A DNA stretch of 43,725 nucleotides. Source: Psychroflexus aestuariivivens (GTDB taxonomy: Bacteria > Bacteroidota > Bacteroidia > Flavobacteriales > Flavobacteriaceae). Below, in pieces: positions 2,255 to 6,840 of the stretch. The notes beneath the pieces are model-generated. The model saw only the letters and a program-made list of their open reading frames with translations. It did no database searches and was not told the DNA's origin. The translations under genes were made by a program, and so were the position numbers. The stretch covers positions 1 to 43,725 of the forward strand of contig NZ_RQVT01000019.1 of NCBI RefSeq assembly GCF_004010055.1. Direction: 5' to 3'. Within the stretch, counting starts at the first letter, position 1. Each line of letters begins with the position of its first letter.

Positions 2255-2262
2255 TATATTTG
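2255..2262 (+). promoter_or_regulatory. TAnnTTTG -7 box at the start of the propeller/MbnPH operon
   Basis: TATATTTG fits the Bacteroidota -7 consensus TAnnTTTG exactly. No good TTTG -33 box lies 17-21 bases upstream. The last three bases of the box are the TTG proposed as the start of the next gene, so if this is the promoter, translation must begin further in, for example at the TTG at 2272. Confidence 0.35.
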
Positions 2263-3684
2263 AATCAAAAATTGAAAACTTTCTACAACTCGATTATTTT
2301 GTTATGCGCAAGCATAACTTTTGCACAGACACCATGCGAAAATGGTTTTGCCGATGAATTTCCTTGCCTGGACTACGATTTGATGGCTCATATTGATTTA
2401 AATGAACTTTCTGCAGGTTCTGGAAATGATTCCTGGGGATGGACAGACCCACAAGACAATTCTGAATATGCCATTGTTGGCTTGAATAATGGTACTGCTT
2501 TTATCGATATTTCAGAGCCTACAAATCCAATTTATTTAGGCAAACTTCCTACGCATACTACTAATAGTCAGTGGCGTGATATCAAAGTCTATGGAAATTA
2601 CGCTTTCATCGTTTCCGAAGCCAATGGTCATGGCATGCAAGTTTTCGATTTGACGAAACTTAGAAATGTGCCTAACGCGCCATTAACTTTTGATGCTGAC
2701 GCCCATTATGATGGTTTCGGGAATGCACACAACATTATCATCAACCCTAGCGAACCTTTTGCATACGCAGTGGGAACCTCAACCTATTCTGGTGGTCCGC
2801 ATTTTGTAGATATTTCTGACCCTTTGAACCCCGTTGAAGCTGGTGGTTATGACTCTAGTTTTTACACACATGATGCCCAAGTGGTGACTTACAACGGCCC
2901 CGATGAAGATTATATCGGTCAGGAGATTTTTCTTGGTAGCAACGAAGACGAAGTCGTGTTTGTTGATGTCTCCAATAAATTTAATCCAACTTTGATTTCA
3001 AGTATAGATTATAGCAATATTGGCTACACACATCAAGCCTGGTTGACCGAAGACCAGCGCTATTTTATCCTTGGTGACGAAATCGATGAAATTAATTTTG
3101 GATTCAATACCAGAACTTTAATTTTCGATTTACAAGATTTGGACAATCCCCTACTTCACCATGAATACCTTGGGCCGACTTCAGCCATAGATCACAATGG
3201 TTATGTGGATGGCAACACCTATTATCTCTCTAACTATTCCGCAGGCTTACGATTGATAAATGTTGAAAATATCGGTGATGCTGAAATGACAGAAATCGGT
3301 TTTTTCGATACTTATCCAGAAAATGACAGTCCTAGTTTCAGCGGATTATGGAGCAATTACCCTTATTTTGAAAGCGGAAATATTGTATTGAGCGACATTG
3401 ATCGAGGTTTCTTTTTAATTCGGAAATCAGGAACTGTGGGAACGCAAGAATTTGCTACAGAACACTTTAAAATGTATCCGAATCCTGCCACTAATGTGGT
3501 TGAATTTGAACACAAAAACAATTTATTAAATTCTATTGAAATATTTAATCTTATCGGTCAAAAAGTAAAAAGTTTTCAATTTGAAGGCGAGAATTCCGTT
3601 CAAATTAATATTGAAAATTTGAAATCTGGCATGTACTTAGTCAAAATAAACGGCAAGCACAATGAAAAATTGATTGTAAAATAA
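2260..3684 (+). CDS. choice-of-anchor B family protein with LVIVD repeats and T9SS type A sorting domain
   Basis: This is a secreted surface protein of 474 aa. A signal peptide ends near residue 23 (ITFAQ). The body carries LVIVD-type repeats such as GTAFIDISEPTNPIYLG, HFVDISDPLNPVEAG, VVFVDVSNKFNP and LRLINVEN, which are known to fold as beta-propeller blades. From about residue 400 there is a type IX secretion C-terminal domain (MYPNPA, IFNLIGQKV, LKSGMYLVKI). The start is TTG. No ATG, GTG or TTG lies upstream after the stop at 2224, and a second TTG at 2272 would give a shorter but still good signal peptide. The stop overlaps the next ATG by one base (TAATG), so the two genes are probably translationally coupled. 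It heads the operon with the MbnP-like and di-heme proteins. The family call is secure. The ligand or partner is unknown. Confidence 0.88.
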   Translation: MNQKLKTFYNSIILLCASITFAQTPCENGFADEFPCLDYDLMAHIDLNELSAGSGNDSWGWTDPQDNSEYAIVGLNNGTAFIDISEPTNPIYLGKLPTHTTNSQWRDIKVYGNYAFIVSEANGHGMQVFDLTKLRNVPNAPLTFDADAHYDGFGNAHNIIINPSEPFAYAVGTSTYSGGPHFVDISDPLNPVEAGGYDSSFYTHDAQVVTYNGPDEDYIGQEIFLGSNEDEVVFVDVSNKFNPTLISSIDYSNIGYTHQAWLTEDQRYFILGDEIDEINFGFNTRTLIFDLQDLDNPLLHHEYLGPTSAIDHNGYVDGNTYYLSNYSAGLRLINVENIGDAEMTEIGFFDTYPENDSPSFSGLWSNYPYFESGNIVLSDIDRGFFLIRKSGTVGTQEFATEHFKMYPNPATNVVEFEHKNNLLNSIEIFNLIGQKVKSFQFEGENSVQINIENLKSGMYLVKINGKHNEKLIVK

Positions 3685-5054
3685 TGCAGTTTAAACACTA
3701 CATATTATTTTGTGCTTTTTTCGCTTTGATGGCTTGCAATACTGATGATGATTCACCTGAAAACGGAGACAATATTTCAGAATTTCAAGGCGAAATCGAT
3801 GTTTTGAAAAGTTTTGGCGGCAGTGCACAAGATGATTTTTTATCGGTGGTAGAAAGTCAAGATTTAGGCATTGTGGCTTTTGGTTTCACACAAAGTAATG
3901 ACGGCGACATTACCGATAAAACCACGACAGACAGCGATTATTGGTTGGTAAAATTCGATCGAAACCTCAACCTGATCTGGCAAAAAACTTTTGGCGGCAG
4001 TAGCGACGATCGCGGTCAAAGTCTAATTTCTACAACTGATGGTGGTTTTGCTGTGACAGGTTTTACACGAAGCAATGATGGTGACATTAGTACAAATTAT
4101 GGTTTCCAGGATTTTTGGGTGGTCAAACTCGATGCTAATGGCAGTATAGAATGGGAAACCAGCATAGGTTTTGCTGGCAATGACCGCGGATACGACATAA
4201 TTCAAACCCAGGACGGCGGCTATTTTGTTACCGGTTTTTTAGATGTTACCGCCAGTAATGGTGAAGGGAATGACGATTTCAACTCTGAAGGCAGACCGAT
4301 GCAAAGTTTTTCGGCTAAACATGGTGTTGGCGAATTTTGGGGCATCAAACTCGATGCTCAGGGCGAGATGCAATGGCGACGTTATTTTGGCGGAACAAAT
4401 AACGATAGAAGTCGCGCAGTGATTCAAACTGCTGATGGTGGTTTCTTACAAACTGGACATTCCGAAAGCGATGATTTCGATATCACCAACCCGAAAGGCA
4501 GTTATGACGTTTGGGTGGTGAAAACTTCAGCGGAAGGCGACTTGCTTTGGGAGAAAAATTTTGGAGGCAGCAGCATTGAAATCGCTTATGATTTAGTGCC
4601 AACTTCCGATGGAAATTTCATCTTGGTTGGCGACACCCGAAGCAGCGACCAAGACATTAGCAATCCAAAAGGTAATGCAGATGTCTGGGTCATAAAATTT
4701 GATGGCGAAGGCAATATGATTTGGGAAAAAAGCTTTGGTGGCAGCGATTTTGATTCAGCGCAATCCATTGAAATTTTGAATAATGGCGAGTTTCTGATTA
4801 CCGGAAATAGCAAAAGCATCGATAATGATTTAAACCAAAATTATGGGCAAAATGACATTTGGAACTTTATCATTTCAACAAATGGCGAGCTACAATGGCA
4901 ATTAAATATTGGTGGTGATGGTTTAGACTTTGGAAATGATTCCGTTCAATTGCAAGATGGAAGCATAATTGTTGTTGGTAGCTCTGAAAGTGACACTGGC
5001 GACATAGAAATGAATAAGGGCGATAAAGATGCCGTGATTTTTAAATTGAAATAA
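3684..5054 (+). CDS. lipoprotein with seven FGGS/DGGF repeats, probable seven-bladed beta-propeller
   Basis: This 456-aa protein has a lipobox with Cys at residue 18 (ALMAC) followed by acidic residues, so it is exported and lipidated. The rest is built of seven repeats of about 55-65 residues. Each has FGGS-x-DD at its start, T-x-DGGF-x-x-x-G in the middle, a DGDI-type turn and then D-x-WVVK-x-D-x-x-G-x-x-x-W. The third repeat contains an insertion of some 25-30 residues. Seven units suggest a closed seven-bladed propeller; that is an inference. I know no function for the family. It starts within the stop of the preceding gene and is followed two bases after its own stop by the MbnP-like gene, so it should be made together with that system. 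It may be a scaffold or substrate of the di-heme enzyme. Confidence 0.8.
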   Translation: MQFKHYILFCAFFALMACNTDDDSPENGDNISEFQGEIDVLKSFGGSAQDDFLSVVESQDLGIVAFGFTQSNDGDITDKTTTDSDYWLVKFDRNLNLIWQKTFGGSSDDRGQSLISTTDGGFAVTGFTRSNDGDISTNYGFQDFWVVKLDANGSIEWETSIGFAGNDRGYDIIQTQDGGYFVTGFLDVTASNGEGNDDFNSEGRPMQSFSAKHGVGEFWGIKLDAQGEMQWRRYFGGTNNDRSRAVIQTADGGFLQTGHSESDDFDITNPKGSYDVWVVKTSAEGDLLWEKNFGGSSIEIAYDLVPTSDGNFILVGDTRSSDQDISNPKGNADVWVIKFDGEGNMIWEKSFGGSDFDSAQSIEILNNGEFLITGNSKSIDNDLNQNYGQNDIWNFIISTNGELQWQLNIGGDGLDFGNDSVQLQDGSIIVVGSSESDTGDIEMNKGDKDAVIFKLK

Positions 5055-5056
5055 TA

Positions 5057-5791
5057 ATGAGAATATTAGCTTTTTTAAGTTTAATATTGGTGTTGACATC
5101 TTGTGACGATGATGATGCTTACTTAGTTGAACTTAATCTCAATTTTGAACACCACGTCGATAATGAAGTTTTGGTCTTTAATGAAATAAATTACGAAAAT
5201 AATTCAGATGAATTTTATAGCATTTCTGAATTGAAATATATCATCAGTAACATTCAGCTTCAAAATAAAAATGGAAACTGGTTTAGTTATCCTGTTGAAG
5301 ACAGCTACTTCTTGATCAATGCTGGAGTTGAAGAAAGTTTAATCGTTAATCTTTCAGGAATCCCGAATGGAAATTATCAAAACATCAGATTTGGATTTGG
5401 CGTTGACCAATCGAATTACCCATTGAATGGCGTTAATAATTTTGTGCCGACTGCTGAAGAGAATGATATGCTTTGGAGTTGGTCTGCCGGTTATATTTTC
5501 CTAAAATTTGAAGGCGAATATCAATTAGTCGATCCAATTGCACCGGAAAACTTTTTATACCATGTTGGCAGTCATGGACAAAATTTGGACAATTACAGAA
5601 CCGTAGAATTAGCAGTCGATTTAGATTTAAACGCTGACACACAACTTGATATTTCTGCGGATGTTTCCAAAATATTCGATGCCACGCATCAAATGTCTTT
5701 ACAACAAAAGTCTGATATTCAAATAGACCCGGAAAACGCTCCGAAAATAGCGGATAATGTTGTAGAAATGTTTCAAATTCAAATGAATTAA
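5057..5791 (+). CDS. MbnP family lipoprotein (copper-binding protein family)
   Basis: This 244-aa lipoprotein has its lipobox Cys at residue 16 (LVLTSC). The fold signature is that of the MbnP family: NFEHHV near residue 29, the YIISNIQL strand, FGFGVD near 112, the DMLWSWSAGYIFLKFEG block at about 137-153, and HVGSHG near 169. Family knowledge: MbnP of methanotrophs is a periplasmic copper-binding protein, and its partner MbnH converts a conserved Trp to kynurenine. Here Trp140 and Trp142 are the obvious candidates, and His32, His33, His169 and His173 are possible metal ligands. The gene lies two bases after the propeller lipoprotein and two bases before the MbnH-like gene, the usual pairing. 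Copper binding and Trp oxidation are inferred and have not been shown for this protein. Confidence 0.85.
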   Translation: MRILAFLSLILVLTSCDDDDAYLVELNLNFEHHVDNEVLVFNEINYENNSDEFYSISELKYIISNIQLQNKNGNWFSYPVEDSYFLINAGVEESLIVNLSGIPNGNYQNIRFGFGVDQSNYPLNGVNNFVPTAEENDMLWSWSAGYIFLKFEGEYQLVDPIAPENFLYHVGSHGQNLDNYRTVELAVDLDLNADTQLDISADVSKIFDATHQMSLQQKSDIQIDPENAPKIADNVVEMFQIQMN

Positions 5792-5793
5792 AC

Positions 5794-6840
5794 ATGTGTA
5801 GAGCTTTGTATGTGTTGTGTTTATTGTTTTTGCTCGTTGCTTGTGGTAGCGACGACAGCAGCTATACAGATATTGAAGACGAAAACAGAGTTTTAGATTT
5901 TCCACAACCTGATTTTTTCCCCTCACCCACTTACGATTTGGAAGCCAATCCACCGACTGAAAAAGGTTTTGAATTGGGAAAAAAACTTTTTTATGACGGG
6001 CGTTTGTCTTCAACAGGTGTTATTTCTTGTGGGTTTTGTCATATTCAGGAGTTTTCGTTTACGCATCACACGCATATCGTAAGTCATGGTGTGAATGGTG
6101 CTTTGGGCACACGAAATGCGCAACCGCTGATGAATTTAGCATATATGGAAGATTTCTCCTGGGATGGTTCGGCGGCACATTTGGATGCCTTTCCGATTAT
6201 TCCTATCACCACCGACGTGGAAATGAATGAAAGCGTGGGCAATGTCATAGAAAAACTAAAAGCCGATGAAGATTACCAAAGTTTGTTTGCCGCTGCTTTT
6301 GAGAATGAAAATATCGATGCGGACAATATGTTCAAAGCTTTGTCCCAGTTTTTGATTATGATGGTTTCTGCCGACACCAAATATGATAAAGTCATGCAAG
6401 GCAATGCTGTTTTTAGTGAAGAAGAAGCTTCTGGCAAAGCTGTTTTTGAAGCTAAATGTGCCAGTTGTCATTCTGGGATTTTATTCACCGACCAAAGTTA
6501 CCGCAACAATGGTTTACCGATAAATCCAGAATATAACGACATTGGTCGCGAACGCGTCACTGGCGAGAGTGATGATCGTTATAAATTTAAAGTCCCAACT
6601 TTAAGAAATATTGCCCTCACCTACCCTTATATGCACGATGGGCGTTTCCAAACCTTATCTGAAGTTTTGAATCATTATGATTCTGGAATGGATCACACTG
6701 AAAATCTGGATCCGATTTTTATCAATGACAATGAAATAGGCATTCCGCTTTCAGACACAGAAAAATCACAGTTATTGGCATTTCTTCAAAGTCTAACGGA
6801 TGACAATTTTATATTAGACCAACGTTTTTCTGAATTTTGA
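5794..6840 (+). CDS. di-heme cytochrome c peroxidase family protein, MbnH/MauG-like lipoprotein
   Basis: This 348-aa protein has a short signal peptide with a lipobox at Cys17 (LLVAC). The first heme motif is CGFCH at residues 79-83 and the second is CASCH at 222-226. Trp123 lies 40 residues after the first heme His, as in di-heme peroxidases, where this Trp bridges the hemes. Near the C-terminus the segment TYPYMHDGRF is followed by NHYDSG. Tyr295 sits where classical peroxidases have a Met ligand, as in MauG-type enzymes with a His-Tyr heme. That points to an oxidising maturation enzyme rather than a simple H2O2 scavenger. The gene is last in the operon, directly after the MbnP-like gene, which is the natural substrate candidate. 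The product is expected to be periplasmic or attached to the outer membrane. The family is certain; the MbnH-like role is a well-supported inference. Confidence 0.88.
   Translation: MCRALYVLCLLFLLVACGSDDSSYTDIEDENRVLDFPQPDFFPSPTYDLEANPPTEKGFELGKKLFYDGRLSSTGVISCGFCHIQEFSFTHHTHIVSHGVNGALGTRNAQPLMNLAYMEDFSWDGSAAHLDAFPIIPITTDVEMNESVGNVIEKLKADEDYQSLFAAAFENENIDADNMFKALSQFLIMMVSADTKYDKVMQGNAVFSEEEASGKAVFEAKCASCHSGILFTDQSYRNNGLPINPEYNDIGRERVTGESDDRYKFKVPTLRNIALTYPYMHDGRFQTLSEVLNHYDSGMDHTENLDPIFINDNEIGIPLSDTEKSQLLAFLQSLTDDNFILDQRFSEF

Follow-up and report, generated by a model that had tools for sequence, protein, structure and literature searches.

Why does an MbnP–MbnH gene pair, of the kind found in methanobactin loci, lie next to two predicted propeller proteins in a flavobacterium, and what might the four proteins do together? 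The question is raised by contig NZ_RQVT01000019.1 of Psychroflexus aestuariivivens, analysed here over positions 1 to 43,725 (the window, 43,725 nucleotides). Four co-oriented open reading frames (ORFs) follow one another on its + strand, ORF 1 and ORF 2 sharing a one-base TAATG overlap and both other gaps being 2 bases. An earlier note on this DNA had described this contiguous arrangement and had read the genes as an LVIVD propeller with a type IX secretion system (T9SS) tail, a seven-repeat lipoprotein, an MbnP-like lipoprotein and an MbnH-like di-heme lipoprotein; arrangement and identities both stand:

2260..3684, + strand: LVIVD / choice-of-anchor-B beta-propeller protein, 474 amino acids from TTG 2260 (TIGR04312, TIGR04183)
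3684..5054, + strand: SBBP-type seven-repeat propeller lipoprotein, 456 amino acids (CylK profile match, lipobox)
5057..5791, + strand: MbnP-like lipoprotein, 244 amino acids, Cys16-DDDD (PF20243, AlphaFold2 (AF2) fold match)
5794..6840, + strand: MbnH-like di-heme lipoprotein, 348 amino acids, Cys17-GSDDSS (PF03150, TIGR04039, 6e1c)

We consider it about an even chance (roughly 0.5) that this module handles metal, most likely copper, at the cell surface in this flavobacterial family.

Distribution of the module and the two SBBP types

The window's family was surveyed in 199 genomes. PF20243 matches 99 of them, TIGR04312 scores above its cut-off in 106, and a full-length SBBP (>440 bits in the search with alignment A1) is present in 99. 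Among 110 MbnP loci (109 fetched regions plus the window), 66 have at least one LVIVD gene followed by SBBP, MbnP and MbnH, 65 of them without an intervening ORF; in L035 two ORFs precede MbnH. L110 carries the same module, with the contig ending after MbnP, and L109 is its other contig piece; MbnP is accompanied by MbnH only in 43 of the 110 loci, L109 among them. Chance co-occurrence in one strain, a doubt raised in the earlier note, is thereby excluded.

The invariable part is smaller. LVIVD lies directly upstream of SBBP in 179 of 179 loci, comprising 99 from the survey (including the window) and 80 named loci, which lean to SBBPs near the query because they are the best 80 of 541. MbnP adjoins SBBP in 67 of the 99 survey genomes, and no MbnP stands beside it in the other 32. 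The four-gene module proposed earlier is recurrent, but its core is LVIVD plus SBBP, and MbnP and MbnH (together MbnPH) travel with one SBBP type. Five survey/named pairs have identical SBBPs, so the 179 loci hold 174 distinct ones, 126 with MbnP and 48 without (three contig-cut ones included). The contiguous order LVIVD-SBBP-MbnP-MbnH is found at 126 loci, the gaps having medians of 11, 7.5 and 6 bases, and its carriers include Psychroflexus, Aquimarina, Aequorivita, Mesonia and Gilvibacter. When 395 genomes sampled from the phylum were searched at E 1e-60, SBBP exceeded 500 bits in 9, all from the window's family; in that sample, full-length SBBP occurs only there.

The SBBP columns were compared between the 130 loci with MbnP next door and the 49 without. 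Six distinguish them (166, 168, 317, 319, 332 and 440, window numbering). The positions concerned in the window, with an invariant histidine for reference, are:

4179..4187, + strand: SBBP N166-D167-R168, aligned with H-D-H in loci lacking MbnPH (column comparison)
4320..4322, + strand: SBBP H213, invariant in both SBBP types (179/179)
4638..4640, + strand: SBBP R319, marker of the MbnPH-linked type (130/130 versus 0/46)

All 130 SBBPs with MbnP beside them have R319 and no His at 166 or 168, whereas all 46 decidable ones without MbnP have His at both 166 and 168 (GHDH), and R319 in none. SBBP type thus agrees with the local presence or absence of MbnPH in every decidable locus (176 of 176). 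In the three others, L142 and L180 (R type) and L196 (GHDH type), a contig edge follows just after SBBP, 85 bases on in L196; since some tables count L196 as lacking MbnP, they give 47 loci without it.

The usual place of the module is between thiL and suf: 156 of 177 loci have thiL upstream, 157 have suf downstream and 146 have both. The thiL and sufB genes were identified by NCBIfam equivalog models and sufA by an Fe-S subfamily model in L092 only, the other loci being matched to those; L142 and L180 are left out of the 177-row tables and the trees. On the SBBP tree the MbnPH state then takes one change, at one split with support 96, and three if L142 and L180 are included and scored as MbnP-less. 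The trees of sufB, thiL and thiL+sufB+sufC need 8, 9 and 8 changes, of which supported branches force 3, 3 and 5; the LVIVD tree needs 6, of which 3 are forced. The flank tree holds 137 of the 177 loci (the remaining 40 do not have complete thiL, sufB and sufC, and L196 is absent from the flank trees). For the flank genes a single clade without MbnPH is rejected by the approximately unbiased (AU) test (p-AU 1.3e-9, log-likelihood difference 388), calculated on 44 of the 137 rows, a subset in which supported branches force 4 changes against 5 in the full set. As SBBP shows one split and the flanks reject a single MbnPH-less clade, SBBP type and MbnPH have been exchanged together relative to their neighbours, and SBBP and MbnPH behave as one heritable unit. 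That the propeller type changes exactly with the presence of MbnPH suggests that the two work together.

Physical linkage alone gives adjacent genes common trees, and MbnPH could be a passenger that entered the thiL-suf gap next to SBBP in a single insertion, the match then stemming from a shared neighbour history. Changes are also fewer for LVIVD, the neighbour on the opposite side (6, against 8 for the flanks), and the sign test on supported branches rests on five pairs. Such a history is unlikely, however, as the fixed GHDH (46/46) and R319 (130/130) look like constraint and not drift, and a genome of the window's genus that keeps thiL and LVIVD (G174, L257:7758-10478) is missing SBBP, MbnP and MbnH jointly, a three-gene absence that lends itself to comparison; the ORFs that follow there have the size and direction of those in Psychroflexus gondwanensis.

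The window itself is one of ten loci (n=177) with neither thiL nor suf, some of which are near contig ends. SBBP is found in 11 of 27 genomes of the genus (E 1e-100 or better). In the ten others the module is always beside thiL, with MbnP and MbnH following in nine and the tenth locus running into a contig edge. The genome of the window has its thiL ORF from base 235 of contig C61 and suf on C9, and the module has a G+C content of 0.384 against a mean of 0.326 for the other window ORFs of more than 150 residues. Relocation, transfer and an assembly break cannot be told apart as causes of this odd location.

The MbnP–MbnH pair

Membership of the MbnP and MbnH families, as claimed in the earlier note, holds at the level of fold and Pfam and misses the NCBIfam cut-offs. 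ORF 3 matches PF20243 with 151.5 bits (gathering score 27, E 3.2e-44). Its AF2 model (predicted local distance difference test score, pLDDT, 87.6) has as its six best PDB matches the six chains of 7L6G, MbnP of Methylosinus trichosporium (E 2.7e-7 to 2.3e-6, TM 0.59 by query length), and the next match is at E 0.047. ORF 4 matches PF03150 (di-haem peroxidase/MauG) with 172 bits, and its best solved relative is 6e1c (E 1.6e-44), which we take to be MbnH. The residues of interest are:

5468..5482, + strand: MbnP M138-L-W140-S-W142 (MxWxW), aligned to MAWNW of 7l6g_A
5561..5563, + strand: MbnP H169, predicted copper ligand, aligned to the His of VHVGS in 7l6g_A
6028..6042, + strand: MbnH heme-binding motif 1, C79-x-x-C82-H83 (CxxCH)
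6457..6471, + strand: MbnH heme-binding motif 2, C222-x-x-C225-H226 (CxxCH)
6676..6678, + strand: MbnH Y295, aligned to a 6e1c Tyr and predicted to be a MauG/MbnH-type axial heme ligand

H169 is invariant in the 28 rows of alignment A3, the profile of which aligns the window's DMLWSW...YHVGS with GMAWNW...VHVGS in 7l6g_A (weak match, E 0.23). Manesis et al. (2021) reportedly found the first Trp of WxW to be converted to kynurenine, with a Cu(I) site completed by His, Met and solvent. M138, W140 and H169 of the window fit these residues, and W140 is the predicted kynurenine precursor. Y295 is kept in 66 of 66 four-gene loci, the Tyr of 6e1c aligned to it being presumably the heme ligand.

The MxWxW motif is one of two MbnP types: the named loci (n=63) have 34 MxWxW and 29 GGGYH proteins. 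GGGYH-type proteins mostly keep the first Trp and lack the Met two residues before it. In the pair-only loci xWxW is found in 42 of 42, with Met at -2 in 41. On the MbnH trees the GGGYH-type and WxW-type four-gene loci lie far apart. Replacement of one MbnPH pair by another at the same place was considered and rejected, as AU tests reject neither a common clade for MbnH (p 0.539) nor a grouping of the WxW-type loci into a single clade for SBBP (p 0.154).

After 6e1c, the closest solved structures to ORF 4 are those of bacterial cytochrome c peroxidases, which brings up the possibility that MbnH serves at the surface as a peroxidase or in electron transfer, and that MbnP is an ordinary lipoprotein that docks metal or heme and contains no kynurenine. 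The absence of the Met in GGGYH-type MbnP would agree with this. With Tyr295 at the position of a 6e1c Tyr and the full MxWxW...H set in the window MbnP, we think it decidedly improbable for this locus.

The pairs without propellers show other settings. At L033:1-18558, L036:1-18510, L037:1-18549 and L038:1-18561 a separate MbnPH clade is immediately followed by a T9SS-tailed YHYH-domain protein (Pfam matches in L036 and L037; L033 and L038 by ORF size and place only), possibly another surface partner for the pair. At L045:7750-13343 a small 122-residue protein is followed by TonB-plug-like and YtkA-like proteins, both sub-threshold matches, and then by MbnPH, in what may be an import-like setting. 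A 128-residue protein lies upstream of MbnPH at L119:6826-10161 and a 330-residue one overlaps MbnH; neither has a Pfam match, and ORFs of like size occur in many other loci. The MbnP of nine pair-only loci (L040, L041, L042, L043, L045, L047, L049, L050 and L052) has an insertion after the conserved His motif, variable in length and often acidic. In the window, two minus-strand ORFs of 120 and 104 residues (5433-6013) overlap MbnP and MbnH and look like antisense chance ORFs.

The LVIVD and SBBP propellers

ORF 1 matches TIGR04312 over the full-length domain with 568.4 bits (cut-off 100), and has a signal peptide at its N-terminus and a T9SS type A tail at its C-terminus (TIGR04183, 51.1 bits). 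The AF2 model (pLDDT 89.3) has strands that we read as seven blades, and the following features were mapped:

2332..3426, + strand: choice-of-anchor-B propeller domain, residues 25-389 (family profile)
3472..3681, + strand: T9SS type A sorting domain, residues 405-474 (Pfam/NCBIfam-type profile match)
2728..2730, + strand: H157, start of the innermost strand of blade 3 (179/179; strand E158-161)
2869..2871, + strand: H204, blade 4 (invariant 179/179; strand E205-210)
3031..3033, + strand: H258, blade 5 (invariant 179/179; strand E257-262)
3193..3195, + strand: H312, blade 6 (invariant 179/179; strand E311-317)

The start of this protein is likelier to be TTG 2272 than the listed TTG 2260, because the signal peptide then resembles in length that of the same-genus LVIVD of L257. 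The sequence TATATTTG at 2255-2262 overlaps the listed start and would suit a start at TTG 2272; it fits what we take to be the Bacteroidota -7 box, TAnnTTTG. Judged by simple patterns, the anchor varies among the 179 LVIVD proteins: 84 have a lipobox and a short tail, 83 a long tail and no lipobox, 2 a lipobox and a long tail, and 10 neither. More than one LVIVD copy is found in 51 of 130 loci with MbnP versus 0 of 47 without, as raw counts uncorrected for descent.

The four histidines are phase-matched, each opening the innermost strand of its blade from blade 3 to blade 6, which would bring them together at a single channel mouth and make this a likely metal site. They are equally invariant with and without neighbouring MbnPH; a search for fixed differences in LVIVD between the two sets of loci yielded only two weak columns.

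The module might act on something other than copper, for example phosphate esters. LVIVD would then be a metal-dependent hydrolase like the propeller phosphotriesterase of Sphingobium, with MbnPH maturing or protecting it. The best PDB match of the model is the phosphotriesterase 5hrm (E 3.5e-12, TM ~0.5), presumably a two-metal enzyme, and invariant His, Asp and Glu residues stand at the starts of the innermost strands of LVIVD. The match has just 14% identity at a root-mean-square deviation of 6 Å, it was made without comparing ligand residues, and the fold class is populous (974 PDB chains at E 0.001 or better); sequence-based PDB searches with LVIVD gave convincing E-values for the T9SS tail only. 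Such a hydrolase would also leave unexplained why SBBP, and not LVIVD, tracks MbnPH, and we rate it as quite unlikely.

The earlier note had further proposed that the propellers could be additional substrates of MbnH, and LVIVD does have an invariant W59-G-W61 placed at the channel mouth. Oxidation of this or another propeller Trp, instead of or besides MbnP, could be invoked for the six survey loci in which MbnH stands beside an MbnP with Phe at the first-Trp place. For LVIVD the proposal is disfavoured and was discarded, because the W59-x-W61 motif shows no association with MbnPH, being as invariant in readable rows with it adjoining (128/128) as in those without (48/48, including three loci ending at contig edges). 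We regard the reading as a whole as very improbable.

ORF 2 has no Pfam match. With NF047494 (LipL53 SBBP lipoprotein) it scores 50.2 bits, below the equivalog cut-off of 400, and the SBBP family profile matches the CylK propeller at E 1.1e-34. Its lipobox Cys18 is followed by NTDDDS. As we read the repeats, the loops with residues 166-168, 213 and 319 probably share one face. This allows for another, rather doubtful interpretation, in which the two SBBP types do the same job in different ways and the metal site has moved between proteins across lineages. Where MbnPH is absent, SBBP would bear its own His metal site, made up of GHDH and H213, whose loops by repeat position would be on the same face of the same blade; where MbnPH is present, this site would have been given up, R319 would have appeared and the copper centre built on MbnP by MbnH would substitute for it. 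The move would have taken place as a cassette, about five or more times.

A candidate surface metal-handling module

Acid-rich stretches follow the lipid-bearing cysteine in the window's SBBP (CNTDDD), MbnP (CDDDDA) and MbnH (CGSDDS). According to PMC5080379, acidic motifs after Cys are surface export signals, SDDFE being predicted for Flavobacterium johnsoniae, and the stretches of the three proteins resemble such signals. A simple lipobox pattern is present in 169 of 179 SBBPs and 127 of 130 MbnPs.

In the reading that we favour, surface metal handling, MbnH with its Tyr-ligated heme would oxidise W140, the first Trp of the MbnP WxW, to kynurenine, which together with M138 and H169 would form a Cu(I) site on MbnP. 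The SBBP propeller would be the surface platform carrying MbnP and MbnH, and LVIVD, with its four histidines at the mouth of the central channel, a further partner that binds metal or acts as an enzyme. Outside the cell, the module would take up or hold copper. The metal, the modification and the docking are all inferred, not shown.

Several observations weigh against it. ORF 3 has 39 bits with TIGR04052, under the equivalog cut-off of 140, and ORF 4 has 225.7 with TIGR04039 (MbnH), under 362.85, albeit as its top-scoring NCBIfam model. Most MbnPs of the survey four-gene loci (n=68) are re-wired: MxWxW is found in 7, W-x-(V/W)-P..LGGGYH in 54 (53 by pattern plus L051) and F-x-V-P..LGGGYH, with no Trp at that place, in 6, the remaining row, L110, being cut by the contig end. 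Only 89 of 129 MbnHs have the simple lipobox pattern. The module usually neighbours the suf (Fe-S) operon and not a copper locus, and its four genes include neither a copper transporter nor a copper regulator. Some genomes with GHDH-type SBBP (G075, G184 and G189) have an MbnPH pair elsewhere. The five supported independent pairs all run in the same direction and give a sign-test p of 0.0625, the lowest value possible with this number of pairs, 0.05 being out of reach.

The window pair is like that of the methanobactin locus (Methylosinus trichosporium, 7L6G) in the MbnP fold, the aligned Met-x-Trp-x-Trp and His, and the adjacent di-heme enzyme with two CxxCH motifs and the aligned Tyr. It differs in its sub-cut-off TIGR04052 and TIGR04039 scores and in being co-encoded with two propellers, as lipoproteins with acid-rich, export-like signals. 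The earlier note's statement that methanobactin genes are absent agrees with the lack of a TIGR04159 (MbnB) match in the window genome, where MbnC and MbnA were not searched for. According to PMC3621798, conservation of the pair extends far past the organisms that produce methanobactin. CorA/CorB and MopE/SACCP of methanotrophs are similar in combining a surface copper protein, a Trp-derived kynurenine and a MauG-like di-heme gene next door; CorA has its kynurenine copper site and lies beside a MauG-like gene, but CorA/MopE is a different protein family with a site of two His, kynurenine and water, and no propeller partners are mentioned in the sections consulted (PMC3912023).

Other MbnPH pairs of the family share the order and the protein families, but have no LVIVD or SBBP; their settings are a small plus a 330-residue protein, a TonB-plug/YtkA-like pair, or the YHYH protein. 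The CylK propeller domain and the 'Bagel' propellers share the SBBP repeat type by profile, but do not form a lipoprotein module; CylK acts as an alkylating enzyme. TIGR04312 proteins match LVIVD over their full length and have interchangeable lipobox or T9SS anchors, whereas the window member has a fixed SBBP partner. We know of no function for the TIGR04312 family.

The earlier note did not know the module as described, and we found no description of it among the papers listed in searches of the open literature, although subscription papers may list it; a neighbourhood analysis of MbnP reportedly made in 2021 may contain the arrangement. To our knowledge, no partners or job have been assigned to MbnP/MbnH pairs outside methanotrophs. 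One third of this family's surveyed genomes have MbnPH tied to two surface propellers, which gives it testable partners. The residue-level switch in SBBP that follows MbnPH offers a natural comparison, with and without the pair, inside one genus, and with it an approach to the role of kynurenine copper sites in bacteria that do not produce methanobactin.

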